Shown here piece after piece: positions 3 to 17,350 of a stretch of DNA of 21,879 bases. The notes under the pieces were generated by a model, which worked only from the letters and a program-made list of their open reading frames with translations, did not search any database and was not told where the DNA came from. Origin of the DNA: a virus; the IMG/VR virus record IMGVR_UViG_3300044489_000172, positions 1-21,879 of that record; one strand, 5' to 3'. Both the position numbers and the translations under genes were made by a program. Within the stretch, counting starts at the first letter, position 1; every line of letters begins with the position of its first letter.

Positions 3-1481
3 GACGCCGGTCCGGCCGACATCTACATCGGCTTCCGGCACCCGGTCACTCGAAGACCTACCAATCCGCTGCCTGCGCAGGCTGCGTTCCTCTCCAGCCG
101 CGCCAAGCATCGGGGGCTCTTCGGCGGGTACGGGTCGGGCAAGTCCGTGGTCGGCGGGATGGCCGCCAACATCGAGTGTGAGATGTACCCCGACAACCTG
201 GGGATCATCGGGCGCCGCATCTGGAACGACCTGCGCGACTCCACGATGGAGGTCTTCTTCCGCGAGGTGCTGCCGCCCGAGCGCAACCCGCTCATCGGCG
301 ACAAGCGGGCCGAGGGGAAGTGCAAGTGGATCGCCACCTCGAAGGACCTGATCTACCCCAACGGCTCGAAGATCATGTTCCGCCACATGGACGACCCCTC
401 GCGCTACCTGTCGGAGGAGCTGGGCTGGTTCTACCTGGACGAGGGGATCGAGAGCGGGATGGACTTCGCGTACAAGGTGCTCTCGTCTCGGTTGCGTCGC
501 GGGCGCTCTTCGCGTCGCGGCTGGACGACCAGCAACCCCGGGCCCCGATCCTCGTGGCTGCACCAGAAGTTCATCGAGGGCATGAAGCGGGACCCGAACA
601 GCTACTTCGCCATCTCGGCGTCGTCCCTCGAGAACCGCTACCTGCCACGGGACTACCTCGCGGAGCTGATGGAGTACCCCGACGAGGAGTTCAAGATGTA
701 CGTCATGGGGCAGTTCATCGCGGCGCAGGGGGCGGTCTTCCCGAAGTTCCGGCGCGACGTGCATGTGGTGCGCCCGTTCGAGATTCCTGAGGAGTGGCCG
801 AAGCTGCGAGCCATCGACTACGGGCTGAACCATCCCTTCGTGTGCCTGTGGATCGCGGTGGACGAGTTCGACCGGAAGCTCTACGTGTACCGGGAGTGGG
901 TGGCGACGGACCTGGACCTGGCGCAGCAGTGTCAGATGGTGCATGGCCTGAGCATCGGCGAGAAGTACCTGCACACGGCGATCGACCCGTCTACTCAGGC
1001 GAGGGTCATCACGGGTGGGCTGCCGGTGATTGACCAAGTGCGGATGTACCTGGACAACGTGATCCCGGGCTTCAACGACGTGAACTCCGGCGTGACGCGC
1101 ATCCGCACGTTGCTGAACTGGAACGTGGATCAGCAGGGGAACTTGACGCGGCGCCCGATGCTCTACTTCTTCGACAGCTGCCCCACGGCCATTGACCAAA
1201 CTGAGGCGCTTCAGTATGATGTCCGCAAGGGTGTGAGCACGGGGAAGCCGGTGGATCGTGACGACGACGCGGTGGACGCGCTGAAGTACGGGGTGCAGAG
1301 CATCGGCGGTTTCGAGGGGTTCAAGGTGGAAGAGGCAACCCCCAGAGATACGATCCAGAGCCGGTGCCGCAAGCAGGCCGAGAGGGAGCATGGCAGGAAG
1401 TTCAGGGGAGGGCGTGGAAGGAAGAGCTTGAGGGACGAGCTGATCGAGCGTGAGGTAGCACGGCTTCAGGTGAGCGCATGA
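3..1481 (+). CDS. terL: Phage terminase large subunit (5' end missing)
   Basis: ATP-driven DNA-packaging motor and headful/cohesive-end nuclease that docks on the portal. The frame is open from base 3 to the TGA at 1479-1481, so the gene runs off the left edge. The first ATG in the window (147) cannot be the start because the Walker A motif GGYGSGKS is encoded just before it, at 123-146. Walker B (GWFYLDEG) lies at 423-446. The RuvC-like nuclease domain begins with AIDYG near 810-824, and the late acidic motif DRDDDAVDALKYG lies near 1255-1292. All these are standard for the family. The C-terminus is very basic (Arg/Lys-rich). The stop overlaps the portal ATG (ATGA), which indicates translational coupling. 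The small terminase subunit is not in the window and presumably lies to the left. Confidence 0.95.
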   Translation, partial: DAGPADIYIGFRHPVTRRPTNPLPAQAAFLSSRAKHRGLFGGYGSGKSVVGGMAANIECEMYPDNLGIIGRRIWNDLRDSTMEVFFREVLPPERNPLIGDKRAEGKCKWIATSKDLIYPNGSKIMFRHMDDPSRYLSEELGWFYLDEGIESGMDFAYKVLSSRLRRGRSSRRGWTTSNPGPRSSWLHQKFIEGMKRDPNSYFAISASSLENRYLPRDYLAELMEYPDEEFKMYVMGQFIAAQGAVFPKFRRDVHVVRPFEIPEEWPKLRAIDYGLNHPFVCLWIAVDEFDRKLYVYREWVATDLDLAQQCQMVHGLSIGEKYLHTAIDPSTQARVITGGLPVIDQVRMYLDNVIPGFNDVNSGVTRIRTLLNWNVDQQGNLTRRPMLYFFDSCPTAIDQTEALQYDVRKGVSTGKPVDRDDDAVDALKYGVQSIGGFEGFKVEEATPRDTIQSRCRKQAEREHGRKFRGGRGRKSLRDELIEREVARLQVSA

Positions 1482-3460
1482 GTACCCTGGCGACCGACCC
1501 GGGCATTCAGAAGAGCCCTGACAGGAAGCGCGCGATCACCGATGCAGTGATGCAGCGGTACCGTGACGCTTCGATGGCGCGGCACGACTGGGAGAACCAG
1601 GCGTACATGAACATCGCCTTCTTCCTGGGCTACCAGTGGATCGGGTGGTCTGACGGGACCGGGTGGATTCAGAAGGCCGAAGACGCGGAGATGCGCTACC
1701 ACCTGGTCTACAACCTGCTGCAGCCGGCGGTGCGGACGCAGGTGAGCCGCACGATGAGCCACAAGCCCTGGGTGACGTGCCTGCCGACGACGGCGGAAGA
1801 GGAGGACGTGCAGGCGGCGAGGTTGGGCACGAAGCTCCTGCAGCATTGGCGCCGGCGGCTGTTCACTCCAACGCTGGAGGCTGAGTTCTACACCTGGCAG
1901 GCGGTGTGTGGGACGGCCTTCTGGCGAGTCGGGTGGGATGCGTATGCTGGACGTTCGATCATTCAAAGGCCGCTCGCACCCTTCGGCGAAGGTATTCTCT
2001 CTCCACACCGGGCGGAAGCATTTCGTGCCCGGCCCGCGAAACCAGACACCCGGGCCCCCTTTGAGCGGTACCTGGCCGAGAGCATCGAGGCAGCGGGTAG
2101 TGGGGGCGTTGGGGGGAGTCCTGAGAGCGAAGCAGCGATAGAGGAGCTGCCGGAGGGGGATGTGCTGCTGGAGGTCGTGAACCCCTTCGAGATCTACCCT
2201 GAGCCTGGCGTGGAGTCGTGGGACAAGGCGTCATGGGTCATCCATGCGCGACGGAGGAGCCGAGATGATGTGCGGGCTGCGTGGGGTGATACGGTGGCTC
2301 GCACAGCGCTGGGCATCCCGGCGAACACGCTGACGGAGGGGCCGGGCTTCAACCCGGACCGGGTACCGAAGTCGGGGGATCCGCAGAACCTCAACGCGCT
2401 CTTCGGGGTAAGCGAGAAGGTTGAGGACGACATCCCGGTGGTGGAGTACTGGGAGCGCCCGAGCAAGGGGTTCCCGAGCGGCCGGCATGTGCTGGTGGTG
2501 GGGAGCGTGTTGGTGCACGATGGGCACAACCCGTTCCCGTTCAACGATGTCCCGCTGGTGCATGTGCCGTTCGAGCGGGTGCCGGGGACGGTGTGGGGTC
2601 GGGGGATGGTGGAGTCGGTGCGCCCGATGCAGGAGGAGTTCAACCGGACGATCAGCCAGTTGGCGGAGGCCCGCGACTACAGCAGCTTCCCGAAGGTGCT
2701 GGTCCCGAGGGGCACCAACCTGTCGCCGATCGTGGGGGACAACCTGCCCGGGGAGTTCTGGGAGTACAGCGGGGCGATGCCGCCGCATGTGATGCAGGCG
2801 CCGCAGATGCCCGCGTACATGGGAACGATCCTGCAGCAGAGCTATCAGATGTTCATGGACCTCACGCACCAGCATGAGGTGACGCGGGGGACGACGCCGC
2901 CGAACGTGGAGTACGGGATCGCGATCCAGCTGCTGCACGAGGCAGACAACAGTCCGTTGCGCTCGACGTATGACATGATCGACGACGGTCTGGTGCGGGT
3001 GTCTCGGATGCTGCTGGCGGTGGCGCAGAAGTACTACACGGAGCCGCGTTACCTGCGACTGGTGGGGCAGCGCAAGGAGCCGCAGGTGATCGCGTTCACG
3101 GGGAGTGACCTGCACGGGATCGTGGACGTGTACGTGGAGCCGAGGAGTGCTCAAGCGAACACGCTCGCGGCGAAGCGGCAGGAGATCATGTCTCTCTACC
3201 AGAGCGGTCTCTTCGGACCTCCGGGTGATCCGGTGGTGACGCAGCGGGTGCTGCAGGCGCTGGAGATGGGCCACCTGAGCGAGATGTTCGAGGAGAACAT
3301 GACGGTGGAAGAGGCCGTGATGCTGCACCTGCAGCAGATGGTCTCCCAGCCCGGGGGACTGGAGATGCTGGTGCAGTGGCTTCAGCAGTTGGGGGCTCCG
3401 GCTGGGGCCCAAGGGGCGCCCGTGGGGCAGCCCATGATGATGTTGCCGGCGGCAGGGTAG
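1478..3460 (+). CDS. Phage portal protein
   Basis: Dodecameric ring at the capsid vertex through which DNA is packaged and ejected. This 660-residue protein follows the terminase with an ATGA overlap. It has the N-terminal helix and FFLGYQW-type motif seen in podovirus portals (residues about 45-55), a VVNPFEIYPEPG strand-turn near 230-241, and the long helical segment beginning GMVESVRPMQEEFNRTISQL near 376-395, which corresponds to portal wing/stem regions. The C-terminal tail is rich in Gln, Gly and Met. Residues about 156-195 have different codon use from the rest (see findings) and may be an inserted loop. Identification rests on position, length and these motifs. Portal function is nearly certain; the exact subfamily is not determined. 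Confidence 0.93.
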   Translation: MSTLATDPGIQKSPDRKRAITDAVMQRYRDASMARHDWENQAYMNIAFFLGYQWIGWSDGTGWIQKAEDAEMRYHLVYNLLQPAVRTQVSRTMSHKPWVTCLPTTAEEEDVQAARLGTKLLQHWRRRLFTPTLEAEFYTWQAVCGTAFWRVGWDAYAGRSIIQRPLAPFGEGILSPHRAEAFRARPAKPDTRAPFERYLAESIEAAGSGGVGGSPESEAAIEELPEGDVLLEVVNPFEIYPEPGVESWDKASWVIHARRRSRDDVRAAWGDTVARTALGIPANTLTEGPGFNPDRVPKSGDPQNLNALFGVSEKVEDDIPVVEYWERPSKGFPSGRHVLVVGSVLVHDGHNPFPFNDVPLVHVPFERVPGTVWGRGMVESVRPMQEEFNRTISQLAEARDYSSFPKVLVPRGTNLSPIVGDNLPGEFWEYSGAMPPHVMQAPQMPAYMGTILQQSYQMFMDLTHQHEVTRGTTPPNVEYGIAIQLLHEADNSPLRSTYDMIDDGLVRVSRMLLAVAQKYYTEPRYLRLVGQRKEPQVIAFTGSDLHGIVDVYVEPRSAQANTLAAKRQEIMSLYQSGLFGPPGDPVVTQRVLQALEMGHLSEMFEENMTVEEAVMLHLQQMVSQPGGLEMLVQWLQQLGAPAGAQGAPVGQPMMMLPAAG

Positions 3461-4544: not shown

Positions 4545-5759
4545 ATGGCGTCAACCAGCACGCTGACGACGCTGGACAACCTCCTGAAGACCCTGTACCT
4601 GCCGGGTCTCAGGTGTCAGATCAACAACACAGTCCCGCTCTTCTCTCAGCTCAAGCGCGACGAGGAGTCGGTGAGCGGGAAGAACTTCACCATCGGGCTG
4701 CACGCGGCCAACAACCAGGGCGGCGGTGCCGCGGCCGAGAACGCAGCCCTCCCCGACCCGGGCGAAGAGGACTACCGGGTCTGTGTGATTCCTCAGCGGT
4801 ACGTGTACTGGCGGCTGCGCCTCACGGGTCAGACGATCCGGGCGACGCGGACGAGCGTCGGCGCCTTTGCGAACGCCTTGGAGAAGGCGGTTGCGGGGTG
4901 CGGCGAGGCGATGAAGCGCGACATCAACCGCCAGCTCTTCGGAACGGGCGCGGCCACGCTCTGTCTCGTGAACGGAGCGGTGACGGGCGCGGCGTCGATC
5001 ACCTGCGACAACGGGGTCAGTTCCACTGTGGGCACCACCCGTCGCATCTACAAGGACATGCTCATCGACATCTGGGACGCGGCGGGCACGACGCGCCAGG
5101 CCCAGAACATCAAGGTCAGCGCGGTGTCTTCGGCGACGGTGTTCACCACGTCCGAGAACGTCACGGTTGAGAACAACGCCATCGTGACGCGGGCGGGTGC
5201 GAAGACGGCCTCCGGCGGCCTGGAGATGATGGGCATCGACCTGATCGCCGACAGCGCGGGCGCGCTCCAGAGCCTCAACCCGGCCACGAGCGGCGAGGAG
5301 TTCTGGACTGCCTACGAGCGGGCCCTCGGCGGTGCGCTGACGCAGGCGGCCATGCTGACGGCGGTGGACGGCATCAACACCAACAGCGGCGAAGACCCGA
5401 ACCTGATCGTGACGACCAAGGGCGGGCGCCGCGCGTACTTCGATCTCTTCGACACGCAGGTGCAGTTCAGCCCGCAGGTGCTGCGGGGCGGCTGGCGTGT
5501 CCTGACGTTCGCGGCCGGAAGCCAGGAGATTCCGATCCTGGTGGACGACGACTGTCCGCTGACGAACTGGTACTTCCTGAACACGCGGCACCTGTCGGTG
5601 TACCAGATGGCGGACTTCGACTGGATGGACATGGACGGGTCGAGGCTGGTGCGCGTCCAGGACCGGGATGCCTACGAGGCGGTGCTGTACATCTACGCCA
5701 ACCTGGGCACGGACAAGCGCAACGCGCACGGCAAGATCACCGGCGCAACCGAGGGCTAA
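4545..5759 (+). CDS. Major capsid protein (HK97-fold expected)
   Basis: A 404-residue protein in the canonical place after portal and scaffold. The N-terminus lacks a long cleavable delta domain. Residues about 85-140 contain the motif TGQTIRATR followed by GAFANALEKAV and KRDINRQLFGTG, a spine-helix-like arrangement common in phage coat proteins where a helix of about 25 residues ends at RQLFG. The C-terminal half has alternating short beta strands and an acidic DFDWMDMDG patch. The start is the ATG at 4545 with GAGGAGGT 9 bases upstream. It is expected to be the most abundant late product. The fold assignment is family knowledge, not shown directly. Confidence 0.88.
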   Translation: MASTSTLTTLDNLLKTLYLPGLRCQINNTVPLFSQLKRDEESVSGKNFTIGLHAANNQGGGAAAENAALPDPGEEDYRVCVIPQRYVYWRLRLTGQTIRATRTSVGAFANALEKAVAGCGEAMKRDINRQLFGTGAATLCLVNGAVTGAASITCDNGVSSTVGTTRRIYKDMLIDIWDAAGTTRQAQNIKVSAVSSATVFTTSENVTVENNAIVTRAGAKTASGGLEMMGIDLIADSAGALQSLNPATSGEEFWTAYERALGGALTQAAMLTAVDGINTNSGEDPNLIVTTKGGRRAYFDLFDTQVQFSPQVLRGGWRVLTFAAGSQEIPILVDDDCPLTNWYFLNTRHLSVYQMADFDWMDMDGSRLVRVQDRDAYEAVLYIYANLGTDKRNAHGKITGATEG

Positions 5760-6465: not shown

Positions 6466-7389
6466 ATGGTACTTTCCGAGCTGGTCGAGCACGCGATGCA
6501 GGCGGCCAATGCCGAGAACTCAGATCGGCATTCCCCGTCCTCGGTGCGGCGTCTCATCAACAACGCGCAGAACGCCATCGTGAAGGCCGGCAACCTGCTG
6601 GTGACTGACCCACTCACGGTGACGGAAGACCTCAAGGCCCATGTGACACAGATCAACGGGGCCCAGACGGCGAGCAACGTCTTCTACGTGGACTCCGTGA
6701 AGTACCTGAAGGTCGGAGACCGGATCGACGTGCTGAACATCGGGGGCAGCAGCCCCGGCGAGACGCTGACGCGGAAGTTCTCCGACAAGCGCATCTCGGC
6801 GCTCAACCAGAACTCGATCTCCGTGCAGATCGGCACGACCATCTCGTGCGCGGACAACGACTACCTGCTGTTCGCGAACGACGTGGGGTTGATCGACGCG
6901 GTGGAGGATGAGCCGGTGTATCGGTCTCCGATCCGGTCGCTGGACATCCTGAAGGTGGAGTACAAGCGGTCGGCAACTGGGACGTACATCCCGCTGCGCC
7001 AGACGGACCAGAAGCGCATCGCGCGTTCCCAGCGCACCGACACGGGCTTTGCTCCCGGTTCGGTCGGGACGGGTTGGCCGACCGAGTGGTACATGATCGG
7101 GGTGCATCAGTTCGGCTTGTACCCGGCGCCGGACGCTGCGCTGGCAGAGGCGCTGCGCCTCACCTACGTGCGGCAGCCGCTGGAGCTGATCGAGCAGGAC
7201 GACGAGCCGGAGATCCCGGACTACTACCATGATGTGCTGTGGCAGTACGCGGCGGCGCAGATGCTGAAGCGCGACGCGAACTTCGACGGCGCGGCGGCGT
7301 TGCTCCAGGACGTGAACGGCTCGATGATGATGGCCCTGATGCAGACGGGCGGCAACCCGCGAGAGCCGATGACGAGGGGCGGTTCCTGA
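6466..7389 (+). CDS. Head-tail adaptor (connector) protein with beta-domain insert
   Basis: A 307-residue protein expected to form the ring beneath the portal that joins head and tail nozzle, as P22 gp4 or T7 gp11 do. The two halves of an adaptor are visible: an N-terminal helix pair (residues about 1-45) and a C-terminal part with the motif YVRQPLELIEQDDEPEIP, then a helix YHDVLWQYAAAQML typical of these connectors. Between them, residues about 60-140 form a beta-rich stretch with a VGDRIDVLN motif, resembling a small barrel domain inserted into the adaptor. GAGGAGGT (6452-6459) overlaps the previous stop and sets the ATG. Its stop overlaps the next start (TGATG), so it is coupled to the nozzle gene. 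Confidence 0.78.
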   Translation: MVLSELVEHAMQAANAENSDRHSPSSVRRLINNAQNAIVKAGNLLVTDPLTVTEDLKAHVTQINGAQTASNVFYVDSVKYLKVGDRIDVLNIGGSSPGETLTRKFSDKRISALNQNSISVQIGTTISCADNDYLLFANDVGLIDAVEDEPVYRSPIRSLDILKVEYKRSATGTYIPLRQTDQKRIARSQRTDTGFAPGSVGTGWPTEWYMIGVHQFGLYPAPDAALAEALRLTYVRQPLELIEQDDEPEIPDYYHDVLWQYAAAQMLKRDANFDGAAALLQDVNGSMMMALMQTGGNPREPMTRGGS

Positions 7390-9674
7390 TGCCCGACCAG
7401 CGGATCACGTTCGCCGACTTCCGTGGGATGGACCAGAGGACGCCGGCGGATCAACTGGGTCCACAGGTGGCGCGCTCCATCCAGAACCTCTACCTGGATC
7501 GGGGCGCGCTACGCTTGAGGAGTGGGCGGAGCAAGCACAACAGCTCCGAGGTCTCGGGCGGGGCGGTGCAGGGGTTGCACAAGTACTACCCCATCTCCGG
7601 CACGGACAAGGTGCTGATCGTGGTGGGCGGCAAGCTCTACCACGCCAGCGCGGGGACCTTCACGGAGGTGAAGGACACCACTGCGCCGACTCCGCAAAGC
7701 CTGGCGGCCGGCTCGGGCGACGTGCACTTCGTGACGTTCAACGACAAGGTGTACTTCGTCTCGGGGAGTGGGGGGCCCTGGTACTACGACGGGACCAACT
7801 GGTTCCTGATCAACGCGCCTGCGAAGCCTGCTGCGGCGCCTGTGCTGGAGCCGAGGTACACGGTTCTTGAGGACTGCAACGACACGACGAACTGGGCAAC
7901 GACGGACGCGGGCAACACGCCGATCGCGCAGGAGACGGCGATCAAGCGTATCGGTTCCGGCTCGCTGAAGATCAGCATCTCCTCCGGCAGTAGTCGCGGG
8001 GACCGTGTGTACTACGACAACACGACCGGCGTGGACCTGAGCGGGGTGCGCCAGATCGCCTTCTGGATGCGAGGGACGGTCACGGGTGCACTGGTCGCGT
8101 TCGGCATAGGGGAGACCTCGCCAGCAGGGGCGCCTTTCGACTACACCTGGACCATCGAGGTCATCGAGGCCAACACCTGGCAACTGGTCTTCGTGGATCT
8201 CACCGACATCGCCGACAGCAGCACGACATCTGGCGAGGGCAAGGACGCGATTCGCTACTGGGGCTTCGAGGTGCTGGAGGACGGTAGTGCGGCCACGGTC
8301 TACGTGGATCACATCGTCTACACGGGCGGGTTGGTCGGCCAGTACCTGTACCGCTACAGCTACTACAACCCGACCACGGGGCTTGAGGGAGAGAGCAGTT
8401 CCGATGCCCTCATCACAGTGGGGGACGGGCAGTACCAGTCGGTGCGTCTGAGGATGACGACCTCCGGCAGCGCTGCGAACGACATCAAGATCTACCGCAA
8501 GGGCGGGATCAGTTCCATCTGGCGCCATGTGGCGACGATGGACGACAGCGGTTCGGGGGTGCAGACCTACACCGACACCGACGCCGAGCACCTCCTGGGC
8601 GCGGAGGAGCCGACCGCCCGGGGGAACCCGCCGAGTGATGCTCGCTTCATCGCGCGCTTCAAGAACCGGATGGTGTACGCGCGGACCACGACGAACCCGG
8701 CGAAAATCTGGCTCTCGAACTACGAGTCGCCCGAGGTGGTGCCCGACCTCACGCTGCTGGAAACGGAGCCCAACGCCGGAGGTCACATCCGGGTGGCACA
8801 CGGCGAGGGCGACCACATTCGGGGTCTGTGCGTCTTCAACGACCGGCTGCTGATCTTCAAGCGCAACAGCATCTGGGCTCTGGTGGGGACGAACTTCCTG
8901 GACTTCACGCTGCAGTCCGTCACGCGGGACCTGGGGTGCATGAGCCACAAGAGCATCGCCCAGTACCAGAATGGGATCATCTGGTACACGGGGAAGGAGA
9001 TCGTGCTCTTCGACCAGAGTGGCTTCCGGGTCTTGAGTGACGCGGTGCAGGACCACTTGGACGACGTGCGCGACGGCTACCGCAACCAGTCCGTGGGCGT
9101 CATCTACAACATGCGCTACTACTTCTTCTACACGCCCACCGGCCAGACGCGGAACACGAAGTGCATCGTGTACGATCTGCGGGTGCAGGGGTGGGTGGAG
9201 CTGACGGGCTGGGAGATACAGTGCGCGCTGTCGTTGCGCGGGGACTCTGAGACGTGGAGCCTGTACTGCGGGGACTCGGCCTCCGGCTTCGTGTGGGATA
9301 GCGACACGGGGTTCACGGACAACACGGCAGCTATCCCGTGGTTGGTTCAGCTGGGGGACTTCACGGGCGGGAACCCGGTAGACGAGAAGGTCGTGACGGG
9401 GTACACGCTGGCGGTGAAGAATGCGGACGAGCTGGCGGTCGTGGAGGTGGACGCGGACCAGGGGCGCGCGAAGCTCCAGTACGTGCACTCGATGCGAAAC
9501 GAGAGGGCGGGCGACGAGGTGCCCGAGCAGACGCTGGTGCGGTACCGTCCGCGGCCGGCTCCGGGGCGCCAGTTGCGGATGGAGTTGAGTGGGTCGGCGG
9601 ATGAGGAGGTCGCGCTGTATCGAGTGGAAGCGGAGGTGCGCCTTGTCAGCAACCGAGCGCCGGTTGCCGGTTGA
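7389..9674 (+). CDS. Tail nozzle / tail stabilisation protein with carbohydrate-binding-like insert
   Basis: A 761-residue tail protein. The start is the ATG at 7389, which overlaps the adaptor stop (TGATG); an earlier in-frame start would lie inside the adaptor gene. Residues 1-155 contain repeated short strands ending in VYFVSGSG, like the start of a beta-propeller. Residues about 155-315 look like a galactose-binding/CBM jelly roll: NDTTNW near the start, GSGSLKIS, VDLSGVRQIAFWMRG, TWQLVFVDLTDI and a final VYVDHIVY. Residues about 316-420 resemble a fibronectin-like segment (YLYRYSYYN, GLEGESS). The rest resumes propeller-type strands (CVFNDRLLIFKRNSIWAL), as in P22 gp10-like and T7 gp12-like nozzle proteins. 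The propeller/nozzle call is strong; sugar binding is inferred. Confidence 0.83.
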   Translation: MPDQRITFADFRGMDQRTPADQLGPQVARSIQNLYLDRGALRLRSGRSKHNSSEVSGGAVQGLHKYYPISGTDKVLIVVGGKLYHASAGTFTEVKDTTAPTPQSLAAGSGDVHFVTFNDKVYFVSGSGGPWYYDGTNWFLINAPAKPAAAPVLEPRYTVLEDCNDTTNWATTDAGNTPIAQETAIKRIGSGSLKISISSGSSRGDRVYYDNTTGVDLSGVRQIAFWMRGTVTGALVAFGIGETSPAGAPFDYTWTIEVIEANTWQLVFVDLTDIADSSTTSGEGKDAIRYWGFEVLEDGSAATVYVDHIVYTGGLVGQYLYRYSYYNPTTGLEGESSSDALITVGDGQYQSVRLRMTTSGSAANDIKIYRKGGISSIWRHVATMDDSGSGVQTYTDTDAEHLLGAEEPTARGNPPSDARFIARFKNRMVYARTTTNPAKIWLSNYESPEVVPDLTLLETEPNAGGHIRVAHGEGDHIRGLCVFNDRLLIFKRNSIWALVGTNFLDFTLQSVTRDLGCMSHKSIAQYQNGIIWYTGKEIVLFDQSGFRVLSDAVQDHLDDVRDGYRNQSVGVIYNMRYYFFYTPTGQTRNTKCIVYDLRVQGWVELTGWEIQCALSLRGDSETWSLYCGDSASGFVWDSDTGFTDNTAAIPWLVQLGDFTGGNPVDEKVVTGYTLAVKNADELAVVEVDADQGRAKLQYVHSMRNERAGDEVPEQTLVRYRPRPAPGRQLRMELSGSADEEVALYRVEAEVRLVSNRAPVAG
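9632..9638 (+). promoter_or_regulatory. Ribosome binding site that sets a TTG start
   Basis: GGAGGTG lies 4 bases before a TTG codon at 9643 (6 bases counted from the GGAGG core) inside the 3' end of the nozzle gene. The other in-frame candidates, GTG 9589 and ATG 9601, have no comparable site. This decides the start of the overlapping small gene. Confidence 0.6.
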
Positions 9675-12419: not shown

Positions 12420-13181
12420 ATGTCCGACCTTCCGTTCGCCGGAAGCTCAGTCGCGGGCAGGCCCAAGGGGCCTCCACGACCGTCTGTTCCTCAGTCGGTG
12501 CGGGCTCCTGCGGGACCGGCGCGGCCGTCGATGCCCTCTCCTGCCGGAGCGGTGATCGTGGGAAGCTGGAAGACCGCCGGAGGAACCCCGCGCTACAGCG
12601 AGGACCCCATCGACTGGGGGAATGCTGTCATCTGGCGCTTCCCGGACGAGACCCGCAAGAAGCTGTTCGGAGGCCTCGTCGAGTACGGGCGTACAGGTCG
12701 GCTCACCGAGGGCGGAAGCCGCTGTGCGGCCTGGGTGCAGCGATTGGGCGTCAAGGTTGGGGCGCCCGGGTTCTACCAGGGCATGGGCAACGCGAACTCG
12801 ATGGGTGGTGCACTGGCGCAGGCGGGTGGTGTGCGGGTGACGGATGGAACCGTGTTGCCCGGGGATGTCGTGCAGTACGTGAGAGGGCACGGGCGCTACG
12901 GGCACATCGGGATCGCTGCGGGGATGGGCCGTGGGCAGACCTACCGTCCGGCTCCCCCTCAGCAACGGGTGAGCGTCAGTCGGAGGATAGGCCGTGTGGC
13001 GCGCAACTGGACCCCGCCCGAGATCATCAACCGACAGCCCGACCCGATGCAGGAACTCATGGTGCAGTCCAGGCTGACGCGGGAGCCGGAACTGAGCATG
13101 GGCGAGAGGACCATCCTCGGCCAGATCGCGCAGATGGTGCCAGACGTGGCGGGCATTCTGGAACGGCTCTTCTTGGAGTAA
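12420..13181 (+). CDS. NlpC/P60- or CHAP-like peptidoglycan hydrolase
   Basis: A 253-residue protein with an N-terminal Pro-rich arm (residues 1-45) and a cysteine-peptidase core. The likely catalytic Cys102 lies in GGSRCAAWVQ, the family GD turn is at 148-149 (LPGDVVQYV), and the likely catalytic His162 lies in RYGHIGIA. Spacing and context match NlpC/P60 and CHAP enzymes, which cut peptide bonds or the amide bond of bacterial peptidoglycan. Residues about 205-253 are a helical C-terminal extension. Its place between ejection-protein genes suggests a virion enzyme that opens the wall for DNA entry, like the lytic domain of T7 gp16, rather than the release endolysin. No other wall hydrolase is visible here, so it could serve for lysis too. 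Confidence 0.8.
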   Translation: MSDLPFAGSSVAGRPKGPPRPSVPQSVRAPAGPARPSMPSPAGAVIVGSWKTAGGTPRYSEDPIDWGNAVIWRFPDETRKKLFGGLVEYGRTGRLTEGGSRCAAWVQRLGVKVGAPGFYQGMGNANSMGGALAQAGGVRVTDGTVLPGDVVQYVRGHGRYGHIGIAAGMGRGQTYRPAPPQQRVSVSRRIGRVARNWTPPEIINRQPDPMQELMVQSRLTREPELSMGERTILGQIAQMVPDVAGILERLFLE

Positions 13182-13183
13182 CC

Positions 13184-16100
13184 ATGGGCTACGACCCGTA
13201 TGCGTCTACTGCTGGTATAGCAGACCTCATGCCGCTGCTCGGCGGGGGAGTCCCCTCTCCATCTCCCAGTGACCCGCTGAAGTCTCTGCGCGGGGAGTCT
13301 CTCCTCGGCAACCTCCTGGAAGAGTCCGACTTCCGCAAGCGTCAGCGCATGGAGCGTGGGTACTGGAACCCTCCGGCGTGGCTGAACGCGCTGGTCTACG
13401 CAGGCGTCGGAGCCCTGCCGGCCATGGCGGCCCATGAGGTCATCCAGTGGCACGCGAAGCGCGCGGCGCGTGGCCTGGACGAGGAGATGGGGTTCCAGGG
13501 GCGGCCTGTTGACTGGATCGAGGCACCCGCTGGAGCGGCCATGGCGGCGGCGGCCTTGGCGATTGGTCGTTGGCAGGACCGCGTGATCCCCGAGCCCGTT
13601 GCCCGGAGGAACGAGGCGCTGCAGGGGATGCGTCGGATCGCCTACGGGGCGGCGGATGCGTCCTTTGCGATGCAGGCAGCGCTCCCCGAGTTCATCCGGC
13701 AGTCGGCACTTGCGGTCTACAAGAAGGTCGCAGGGACCTACGACCCGCTCAACGATCAGCCGGTGATCTTGCCGAATGCCGAGGTCCTGCACACCTACCA
13801 CCCGGGCTGGGCTTCGACCACGTTGTACGACAACCAGGATGTGCTGGCAGCGCTAACTCCCTGGTCGAACCTGCTGGCCCCGGAGGGCAAGCCGGGGCTC
13901 GGGAACTGGATGGCGCGGAAGTGGCTGCGGATCGGCGTTGACATGCCGGGCGCCATGTTGCAGCACGTCGCCAAGATGCCGCGTGGAGAAGCGCTGGGCC
14001 TGGGCATGGACATCCTGCTGGACCCCTCGACCTACTTCTCCCCCAACGTGGGGAAGCTGCTCAAGGACAGCGGACTGAAGTTCGGGAGCAAGATCTCCCA
14101 GGTGTTGGAAGGGCGTTTGCGCTTCGCGGTAGCTGGGGCCGAGAACGCCGACGACCTGCTGCGTATCGAGCGGTCCTGGTCGTATCGCGCTAACCAGTGG
14201 ATGCTCCGACAGGATCAGGGCATTCGTCGTCTGCTGTGGCGAGGCTTTCACCTGCCGACGACAGCCGAGGAGGGGATGACCTACGAAGCCCTGGGTCAAG
14301 CCATCCAGCAGGCGACAGCCAATGCCGGGCATGTGTCGAGGTCTCTCGGGAACACACTGAAGGACATCCGCGAGATCGTGAAGACGAGACTCCCGGGGCG
14401 GTTGGTGGATCAGGTACCGGACACGACGAACGCGGAGTCGGTGCTGCGGTATCTCTACGAGAAGGCCGGCGAAACGTACAACAAGCCCTGGTGGCGTTAC
14501 GCCACGCGGGCAGGCAAGGACTGGCGCCCGGTCATTGAGCACATCGAGTCCCTGGTCCAGCGCGGGGGCTTCTCTGCCTGGGATCGCTTCATGGAAGAAG
14601 GCCCGAAGGTCATGGAGCGTCTCGGAGCAGTCGGCGAGGGTGAGAGTGCCAGCGAGGCTTTCCTCCGCCTCCTCAACAGCGACGACCTGGACGACCCCGC
14701 CGTGGGAGCCTTGCGCGATCTGCGGGACAGCGCGCTGAAGTCCCAGTGGGAGGATGTCGGCCAGAACTTCGGCGGCGAGGTTCGGAAGACCGTGGAGGAA
14801 GTCGCAGAGCGCTGGAAGCTCTACCAGCAGGACCTCGCTACTTCGCTCAACGCGATGCGAGTGATGGGGGGTGTGAGGCGCGAGCTTCTTCCGGCGATGC
14901 ACAGCTTCCGCAGCTACGCCTGGCACTATCGTCCGGAAGAGATGGCGGCCATGCTGGAGTTGAGTGACCCGCAGGCGGCCGCCGTGCTGGAGGGACGGAT
15001 TGGTGGGAAGGTTGGTCCGTTGGAGTTCCTGGGGATCGCCGACTCCCGACGCCCCCACGTGCGGAACTTCCGCCTCGTCAAGGGGCAGAACCCAGGACAG
15101 GGCCTGCTGAAGATGCGCGAGGCTTCCCCCGAGTTGGCGGAAGCTCTGGGCATCCTGAGCATGGAAGAGTCGGCGCTGTTGGAGGGGCGTTCCCAGGCCA
15201 ACCTCCAGGCACAAGCCATTCTGCGCGACCAGATACAGCAGATGGCGATCAGAGGAATGCCGGGCGTTCGCACCGTCGAGGAAGGCTGGGCGTGGGTGTT
15301 CCAGGGCTTGCCCCCCGAGGCGCTTCAGGAGTACGGAGTCAAGAGCTACACGGAGCTGTCGCGTCGCTTCTTCCCTGTGGTGCATGGGCGCAGTCGGGCG
15401 CAGGAAGTGACTGCCGTGATGAACCTCGTGGACAACAACTGGGAGTTCGCGAAGCAGGTGCTCGACCGTGACAGCATCCGCAAGTGGCGCTCGATGGCGT
15501 TTCCCGACAACAGCATGTACGGCTCCATCATGGGAGAGGGGCTCTTCCCGCGCGAGATTGTGGAGCGTCTGACCAGCAGCGAGTGGCATGTGAACCGCAA
15601 CTGGTACACGAACCTTGTGGCGAAGTGGCGCTTCGGGAAGGCGGTCTGGAACCTGGGCGGGCAGGCGCGCAACATCCTGTCCAACGTGATCCAGACCTAC
15701 AATGCCGTTGGCTTCCCGGTCTCGTTCAACGACCTGCGCGGCATCTGGCGCGACGACAGCGAATGGGCCCTGGCCCGCGAGGAGCTGGGCTCCAGCCGAG
15801 CGATGAGTTTCGAGGAGGGAGCGGGTTTCGCCAACGGGCTAAGGAAGAACTTCGCCCGTCACGCGGACAAGATCACCTGGTCCAGCGAACTGAAGGAGGC
15901 GCTCGACCCGATCTTCGACAGCTTCGGTCGGATGTGGGCCTTCTCGGAAGACACGCAGTCCGCGGTCCCGCACAAGTACATCTTCGAGCGCCTGATGGAG
16001 CGCTTCCAGAAGGCCGGTGGCGCCATCGTGGGGGCTCCCGATCTCCACAGTGACCTGTCGCAGGAGTTCGTGAAGCGTGGTGGGCGTATCCTGGAGGAGA

Positions 16101-17350
16101 GTCGGCTCGCGGTCGGCAAGGCGCGGGAGCTGTCGGACGGTCGTGTGGCGATGATGAATGCCAAGGGGGAGTGGGTACCGTGGACCCGTCAGGCTCTGGC
16201 GGCCCAAGCGGCTGCCGAGCATATCGCCAACAAGGCGGTCGTGGAGTACAGCCGGGTCCCGCCGGTGATTGAGGCGATGCGCGGCTACGGCCTCGTACCG
16301 TTCATCGCCTTTCCGTACAAGGCTCTCCCGATCACCTTCCAGGCGGCGCTGGATCATCCCAACCGCTTCGCCAACTGGGGGCGGTTGATACAGACCGTGG
16401 AGAACATGGACCGGCAGGGCGCCGAGGAGCGGGCACACTTCTCCGACTGGATGAGCAGGTCTGGATACCTGCGGGTGCCTGGGGAGAATGGGGCTCTCAT
16501 CACGAACCTCAGCTACCTGTTGCCTTGGGGCGACATGTTCGACATGGGAAGCCTCTTCGTTCAGCGGGAAGCGTTGCCGCTGGACCCCAGTGCAAGCCTC
16601 GGGGCAAGGGCAGAGGACTTGGCGGATCGGGTAATGCTCAGTATCCCATTTGCCAACTTCATAGAGGAGATTCGCACGAAGCAGTCCACCCTCACGGGCC
16701 GTTCCTACGTGGAGAAGGACGATCCGCCCAGCGTGGTACGCAAGAAAGTGCTGGCGCGCCTGTGGATGAACGTCTTGCCGCCTGCGTTGTTCGGGTCGCA
16801 GTCTACGCAGGAGTTCGCTCGGGCATGGATCAAGGAGTGGGAGAAGTACCGGACGACGGGCAAGGTGCCAACGGTGGTCGGGTCGAAGCTCGTGGACCTG
16901 CCGGCGGGTGAGGCGCTGCTGCGGGCTTACGACGAGTTCAGCCAACTGGTCTACAAGTTCCCGGCCGTGTACCAGGGAGCGAGGGCGGGGGACTCTGCCC
17001 CGAGCTTGACCACGGCAGCGTGGCGCAGCTTCGGGTTGAGGGCTCTGCCGTTTGACCGCGAGAAGCAGCGGGAAAGCCTGGAGTCCGGTCTCGACCGTGC
17101 GGAGGAGTCGCTCGACAAGGAACTGCAGTTCATCGAGGAGGAGCGTCGCGGGAACAAGTACTCGAAGGACGCCGGCCGTAACGACGAGATCGCCGACGCC
17201 TTGCGCGCGGGCAAGCTGAGGGGCTTCAAGGAGTGGTACGAGAACCAGCCCTACGTGCGTTGGCATCGGTACTACTACACGCCCCCCAGCTACGGGGATC
17301 AGACTTGGTTCGAGCGCGAGTTGGCGGAGCTTGAAGGGAGCCGTGAGTGA
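13184..17350 (+). CDS. Giant internal virion / ejection protein
   Basis: At 1388 residues this is the largest gene of the window, starting 2 bases after the hydrolase stop with GGAG ahead of the ATG. Two hydrophobic segments lie near residues 66-84 and 114-129. Three motifs recur in very large phage virion proteins: LGLGMDILLDPSTYF (271-285), a segment near 818-845 with AVWNLGGQARNILSNVI, and one near 1038-1065 with FIAFPYKALPITF. Most of the protein is predicted helical and charged, and the C-terminus carries a charged helix then an aromatic-rich tail. It occupies the place of T7 gp16, the protein that crosses the envelope during DNA injection, but its lytic activity seems to be supplied by the separate upstream hydrolase. 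Function is inferred. Confidence 0.78.
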   Translation: MGYDPYASTAGIADLMPLLGGGVPSPSPSDPLKSLRGESLLGNLLEESDFRKRQRMERGYWNPPAWLNALVYAGVGALPAMAAHEVIQWHAKRAARGLDEEMGFQGRPVDWIEAPAGAAMAAAALAIGRWQDRVIPEPVARRNEALQGMRRIAYGAADASFAMQAALPEFIRQSALAVYKKVAGTYDPLNDQPVILPNAEVLHTYHPGWASTTLYDNQDVLAALTPWSNLLAPEGKPGLGNWMARKWLRIGVDMPGAMLQHVAKMPRGEALGLGMDILLDPSTYFSPNVGKLLKDSGLKFGSKISQVLEGRLRFAVAGAENADDLLRIERSWSYRANQWMLRQDQGIRRLLWRGFHLPTTAEEGMTYEALGQAIQQATANAGHVSRSLGNTLKDIREIVKTRLPGRLVDQVPDTTNAESVLRYLYEKAGETYNKPWWRYATRAGKDWRPVIEHIESLVQRGGFSAWDRFMEEGPKVMERLGAVGEGESASEAFLRLLNSDDLDDPAVGALRDLRDSALKSQWEDVGQNFGGEVRKTVEEVAERWKLYQQDLATSLNAMRVMGGVRRELLPAMHSFRSYAWHYRPEEMAAMLELSDPQAAAVLEGRIGGKVGPLEFLGIADSRRPHVRNFRLVKGQNPGQGLLKMREASPELAEALGILSMEESALLEGRSQANLQAQAILRDQIQQMAIRGMPGVRTVEEGWAWVFQGLPPEALQEYGVKSYTELSRRFFPVVHGRSRAQEVTAVMNLVDNNWEFAKQVLDRDSIRKWRSMAFPDNSMYGSIMGEGLFPREIVERLTSSEWHVNRNWYTNLVAKWRFGKAVWNLGGQARNILSNVIQTYNAVGFPVSFNDLRGIWRDDSEWALAREELGSSRAMSFEEGAGFANGLRKNFARHADKITWSSELKEALDPIFDSFGRMWAFSEDTQSAVPHKYIFERLMERFQKAGGAIVGAPDLHSDLSQEFVKRGGRILEESRLAVGKARELSDGRVAMMNAKGEWVPWTRQALAAQAAAEHIANKAVVEYSRVPPVIEAMRGYGLVPFIAFPYKALPITFQAALDHPNRFANWGRLIQTVENMDRQGAEERAHFSDWMSRSGYLRVPGENGALITNLSYLLPWGDMFDMGSLFVQREALPLDPSASLGARAEDLADRVMLSIPFANFIEEIRTKQSTLTGRSYVEKDDPPSVVRKKVLARLWMNVLPPALFGSQSTQEFARAWIKEWEKYRTTGKVPTVVGSKLVDLPAGEALLRAYDEFSQLVYKFPAVYQGARAGDSAPSLTTAAWRSFGLRALPFDREKQRESLESGLDRAEESLDKELQFIEEERRGNKYSKDAGRNDEIADALRAGKLRGFKEWYENQPYVRWHRYYYTPPSYGDQTWFERELAELEGSRE

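Follow-up and report, generated by a model that had tools for sequence, protein, structure and literature searches.

A CBM11-like jelly roll predicted at a variable domain site of a podovirus tail nozzle protein

In the usual view, nozzle proteins act as structural gates, and recognising the host is the task of fibres and spikes. A nozzle gene in a 21,879-base IMG/VR record, a fragment of a virus (IMGVR_UViG_3300044489_000172, hereafter the window), encodes a protein that appears to carry a carbohydrate-binding-like segment between propeller parts, and raises the question of what such a segment might do at the end of a tail.

The nozzle gene and its neighbours

The nozzle ORF (7389..9674) lies on the forward strand, as do all window features given below; it runs from the ATG at 7389 to the stop at 9674 and its product has 761 aa. 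Judged by sequence comparison, this product is the tail nozzle of a podovirus, of the P22 gp10 / SU10 gp17 type. Its core matches PHROG 3287 (E 5e-21), PHROG 511 (E 2.5e-19) and PHROG 578 (head closure Hc3, E 1.7e-14). A profile of 12 homologues retrieves from the PDB the P22 gp10-type stabilization/hub chains 9vyg (9e-12) and 7eeq (5e-11), and also 8tvr, 8eap and 7sg7 at about 1e-3; the core profile aligns with residues 581-1005 of SU10 gp17 (E 1.9e-5). The neighbouring genes support the same identity: the portal is P22/SU10-like (1478..3460; PF16510 E 9e-28, PF23899 E 1e-8) and the gene upstream of the nozzle encodes an SU10-type adaptor (6466..7389; Pfam SU10_adaptor PF24175 E 9.2e-12), so that the order portal - MCP - adaptor - nozzle is present in the window, as read from its ORFs and their Pfam and PHROG matches. 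A genome scan with the nozzle as query found no relative, and Pfam and PHROG scans found no enzyme family in the protein outside the insert.

Seven blade-like repeats can be read in the nozzle by eye, two before the insert and five after it. Homologue alignments assign to the N-terminal part (aa 1-148, 7389..7832) a platform strand and the first two of these apparent repeats; the alignment to SU10 gp17 581-1005 and to homologues of 476-553 aa assigns the remaining blades and a C-terminal platform to aa 412-761 (8622..9671). A structure model of the whole nozzle made without an alignment has a pLDDT of 33.5.

Two further window genes are of note in their own right. A CHAP-domain protein (12420-13181; E 2.5e-4, just under the cut-off) is encoded between ejection-like proteins and is a probable virion-associated wall hydrolase, and the 1388-aa product of 13184-17350, which gave no convincing PHROG or NCBIfam match, would by its position be a large ejection/internal virion protein.

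A carbohydrate-binding-like segment and its companion domain

The original prediction placed a carbohydrate-binding-like jelly roll at 7853-8335, limits that prove about right: the in-frame segment spans about aa 155-313 (7851..8327). All five motifs on which it drew are located in the protein read from 7389, namely NDTTNW at aa 164, GSGSLKIS at aa 189, FWMRG at aa 225, WQLVFVDL at aa 264 and YVDHIVY at aa 305. The isolated segment matches Pfam CBM_11 with an E value of 1.2e-4 (22.7 bits; 3.8e-4 when the whole protein is used) and CBM_4_9 weakly (E 0.042, 14.6 bits); these scores lie under the curated Pfam cut-offs of 27 bits and 25.9 bits, respectively, and by the curated cut-off the insert falls short of CBM_11 membership. 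Other searches returned little: phmmer against the PDB gave a single chance-level match (E 0.83), tblastn found nothing in phages and one weak match in plasmids (E 0.7, a GH17 protein of Ca. Chlorohelix), and IMG/VR scans with the insert recovered the same virus only.

The insert has a GC3 of 0.855 against 0.90 in the flanking core, which it resembles in codon usage and in GC at each codon position, indicating that it is truly coding. Recent foreign acquisition is unsupported by this codon usage, and an assembly chimera is ruled out because another and longer contig of this virus has the identical insert.

An AlphaFold model of the isolated domain (aa 149-319, single sequence) has eight strands in order and is of low confidence (pLDDT 43.8, pTM 0.42). 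A Foldseek comparison had been suggested with the original prediction as a check; against the PDB, the best matches of this low-confidence model are mostly CBM jelly rolls, including CBM4-2, CBM61, CBM11 (1v0a, 6r31), CBM30 and CBM6. In a second fold comparison (VIA) the best match is the CBM4 structure 1gu3, with a Z of 8.1, close to what common arrangements give. Taken at the same low pLDDT, the model compares with CBM11 6r31 at a Z of 7.3 over 116 residues (rmsd 4.0). Foldseek and VIA matches together span CBM4, 11, 22, 29 and 30, and the viral fold matches include beta-helix proteins as well as CenC-like phage proteins. As a rough control, a fold search with the equally poor whole-protein model yielded no CBM and no meaningful match; the CBM matches are thus not what bad models of this nozzle return by default.

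The segment might instead be propeller sequence that has expanded, or a beta region of unrelated origin, and resemble CBMs by chance, as the Pfam score under threshold and the low pLDDT would allow. This is very improbable, since the Pfam profile and the fold search, two separate methods of which neither is sufficient alone, agree on one superfamily, and since the segment is missing from canonical homologues while the flanking blades align across it. The CBM resemblance of the insert is above chance at the level of sequence profiles, and we regard the insert, with low confidence because of the model, as a CBM/galactose-binding-type jelly roll. The predicted setting of a jelly roll between propeller parts is therefore borne out by a sequence profile and by low-confidence fold support.

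A second domain, missed by the original prediction, follows at aa 314-408 (8328..8612) and forms the second part of the insert. It is nearest to an FN3-like domain of another nozzle, L015 (27% over 86 aa, E 0.002 in a 23-sequence set), and a domain of the phage esterase/lipase family phrog_19622 (E 7.4e-5); a Pfam scan gave no match. From these alignments it looks like an FN3/Ig-like domain, a fold name that is provisional.

Different occupants of the site in related nozzles

SU10 gp17 has four Ig-like nozzle domains between propeller blades 2 and 3 (PMC9509320). The segment from SU10 residue 581, which aligns to the window nozzle from aa 413 onward, begins right where this Ig-like stretch stops; the insert in turn stops at aa ~411 with a propeller blade immediately after it, as in an SU10-type insertion ahead of the third blade. 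Cross-family nozzle alignments run at about 20% identity, which makes such positions approximate; on these alignments the insert and the SU10 Ig-like domains would precede the same blade, with starts that may be offset by one blade repeat. The site is no odd insertion but a known nozzle-domain site that holds Ig-like domains in SU10 and the tip barrel in T7.

The content of the site varies among homologues. Eight of the canonical homologues compared, with 476-553 aa, are without the CBM-like segment; of the longer ones, L015 (606 aa) has FN3-like domains, and HTVC104P (603 aa) and C75C1 (728 aa) have other sequence there. Relatives sharing the MCP family, drawn from IMG/VR and phages, add to this picture. 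Shocker (514 aa), L035 and L036 (572-573 aa) have nozzles without a large extra domain, L008, L032 and L041 (607-614 aa) fill the same site with another beta domain, and Jasmine, L039 and DS1 (684-744 aa) have an extra C-terminal module at a different site. The L039 and DS1 modules match tail/fibre families (phrog_14138, 2.5e-5; phrog_9229, 1.8e-8). The three C-terminal modules were considered as kin of the insert and rejected, as neither a sequence relation to it nor a Pfam CBM match was found, and for that of Jasmine even a jelly-roll fold is doubtful. An NPSFE-type module, common to tail/fibre families, stands after the propeller in the nozzles of DS1 (L028:3369-3950) and L039 (L039:12343-12816).

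Because SU10 and the closest MCP relatives hold other beta domains there, these alignments point to the CBM11-like insert as a new kind of domain at a nozzle site already known to vary in content. The unrelated modules of DS1 and L039 at another position support modular swapping, and nozzles of this MCP family appear to accept different accessory modules at two places.

The nature of the site also makes a purely structural role a serious rival, in which the domain lengthens or braces the tail tip, or docks a tailspike or needle, and binds no sugar. A nozzle may have jelly rolls or Ig-like domains that serve structure alone, examples being the T7 fibre dock and tip, which are beta barrels or jelly rolls, and the SU10 nozzle extension; moreover, the insertion site is that of the SU10 nozzle domains and unrelated beta domains fill it in relatives. 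In both the profile and the fold searches, however, it is CBMs and not phage docking domains that come closest, even if a shared fold shows no function. We regard the structural role as a distinct possibility that falls short of being probable.

Attachment, proposed role and known systems

The original prediction saw no separate tail fibre or receptor-binding gene and proposed that the insert could contribute to attachment to capsule or lipopolysaccharide. The window is indeed without a tail fibre annotation; the virus probably is not without such a gene. A contig of 42,058 bases from the same virus (IMGVR_UViG_3300024054_000030, here L009) contains the window at its positions 13103-34981, with four mismatches only, all at window positions 4562-4721 and none in the nozzle. 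Upstream of its terminase gene lies a candidate tailspike of 460 aa (L009:6586-7968; Pfam Beta_helix E 0.2), the start of which presumably forms a right-handed beta-helix, going by its sequence pattern, with a short beta C-terminal region; small beta proteins are also encoded upstream of the terminase. In the related podovirus Jasmine, a gene between MCP and adaptor is annotated as a tailspike. That the window has no fibre gene does not, then, imply that the nozzle replaces the fibre. That the insert is the main receptor-binding element, with the nozzle alone attaching to capsule or LPS, would fit the window's annotation and the one reported precedent for tail tubular proteins that bind a host receptor (PMC7241545), but is quite improbable in view of the tailspike-like ORF and small beta proteins of the longer contig and the tailspike of Jasmine. 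LPS itself is a doubtful target and not a safe assumption as ligand, since Arthrobacter, Microbacterium and Cellulosimicrobium, the hosts of the nearest cultured relatives, are Gram-positive actinobacteria.

Three other ORFs were noted in the course of the analysis. Beside structural genes of the longer contig are a glycosyltransferase and methyltransferase fusion (L009:9744-11447) and a long ORF that matches radical SAM/SPASM weakly (L009:3680-5836), both possible glycan-modifying cargo; a peptidase M23 ORF on the opposite strand (L010:16522-17364, E 8e-9) is a likely endolysin.

The reading that we prefer, with about an even chance of being right, is that the nozzle jelly roll and the FN3-like domain make an accessory, low-affinity and multivalent contact with host envelope glycans, primary attachment being left to a separate tailspike. 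The CBM11-like jelly roll and the FN3/Ig-like domain would lie in the loop between blades that bears the nozzle-tip domains of SU10 and T7, and assembly into a hexamer would ring the distal tail end with six copies; we infer both the tip location and the hexamer. Attachment by the tailspike would come first. The tip domains would then bind envelope glycans, for example capsule or cell-wall polysaccharide, weakly and multivalently, and this contact might help the tail to settle against the cell or to sense it. The insert is likely to touch the host envelope at the tail tip, and its glycan binding is putative. In a more ambitious version the nozzle would be a glycan sensor, its six CBM-like modules binding polysaccharide and helping to open the channel or trigger ejection, in a family that would repeatedly swap such modules at two sites as it adapts to different hosts; this we consider rather unlikely.

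A sugar-binding-like tip module that differs from those of relatives would suggest that the nozzle, in the accessory role that we prefer, is a second and evolvable point of contact with the host. A contribution of the nozzle to adsorption and trigger sensing, for which there are few cases so far (PMC7241545), would thereby become testable. CBM-like domains in nozzles went unreported in the literature searched, which included few subscription papers.

Among known systems, the insert is matched by profile and fold search to CBM family 11 (CtCBM11, 1v0a/6r31) and to the wider CBM4/22/29/30 jelly rolls. Unlike family 11 members, it scores under the curated cut-off and resides in a nozzle, where it is not attached to a glycoside hydrolase, and its binding is only putative. 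Cellulosimicrobium phage DS1 and the IMG/VR locus L039 share the MCP family and also have an extra module in the nozzle, one of the NPSFE type (phrog_9229, 14138, 15641) that occupies the C-terminal site and is unrelated in sequence to the insert. The packaged DNA stabilization (hub) proteins of the P22 gp10 type (8tvr, 8eap, 9vyg) have a propeller core homologous to that of the window nozzle; with chains of 446-472 aa, they are without its extra domain. SU10 gp17 from the Kuravirus group has the same gene order, belongs to the same family and places beta domains before the same propeller blade, four of them Ig-like, whereas the window nozzle has one CBM11-like jelly roll and one FN3-like domain.
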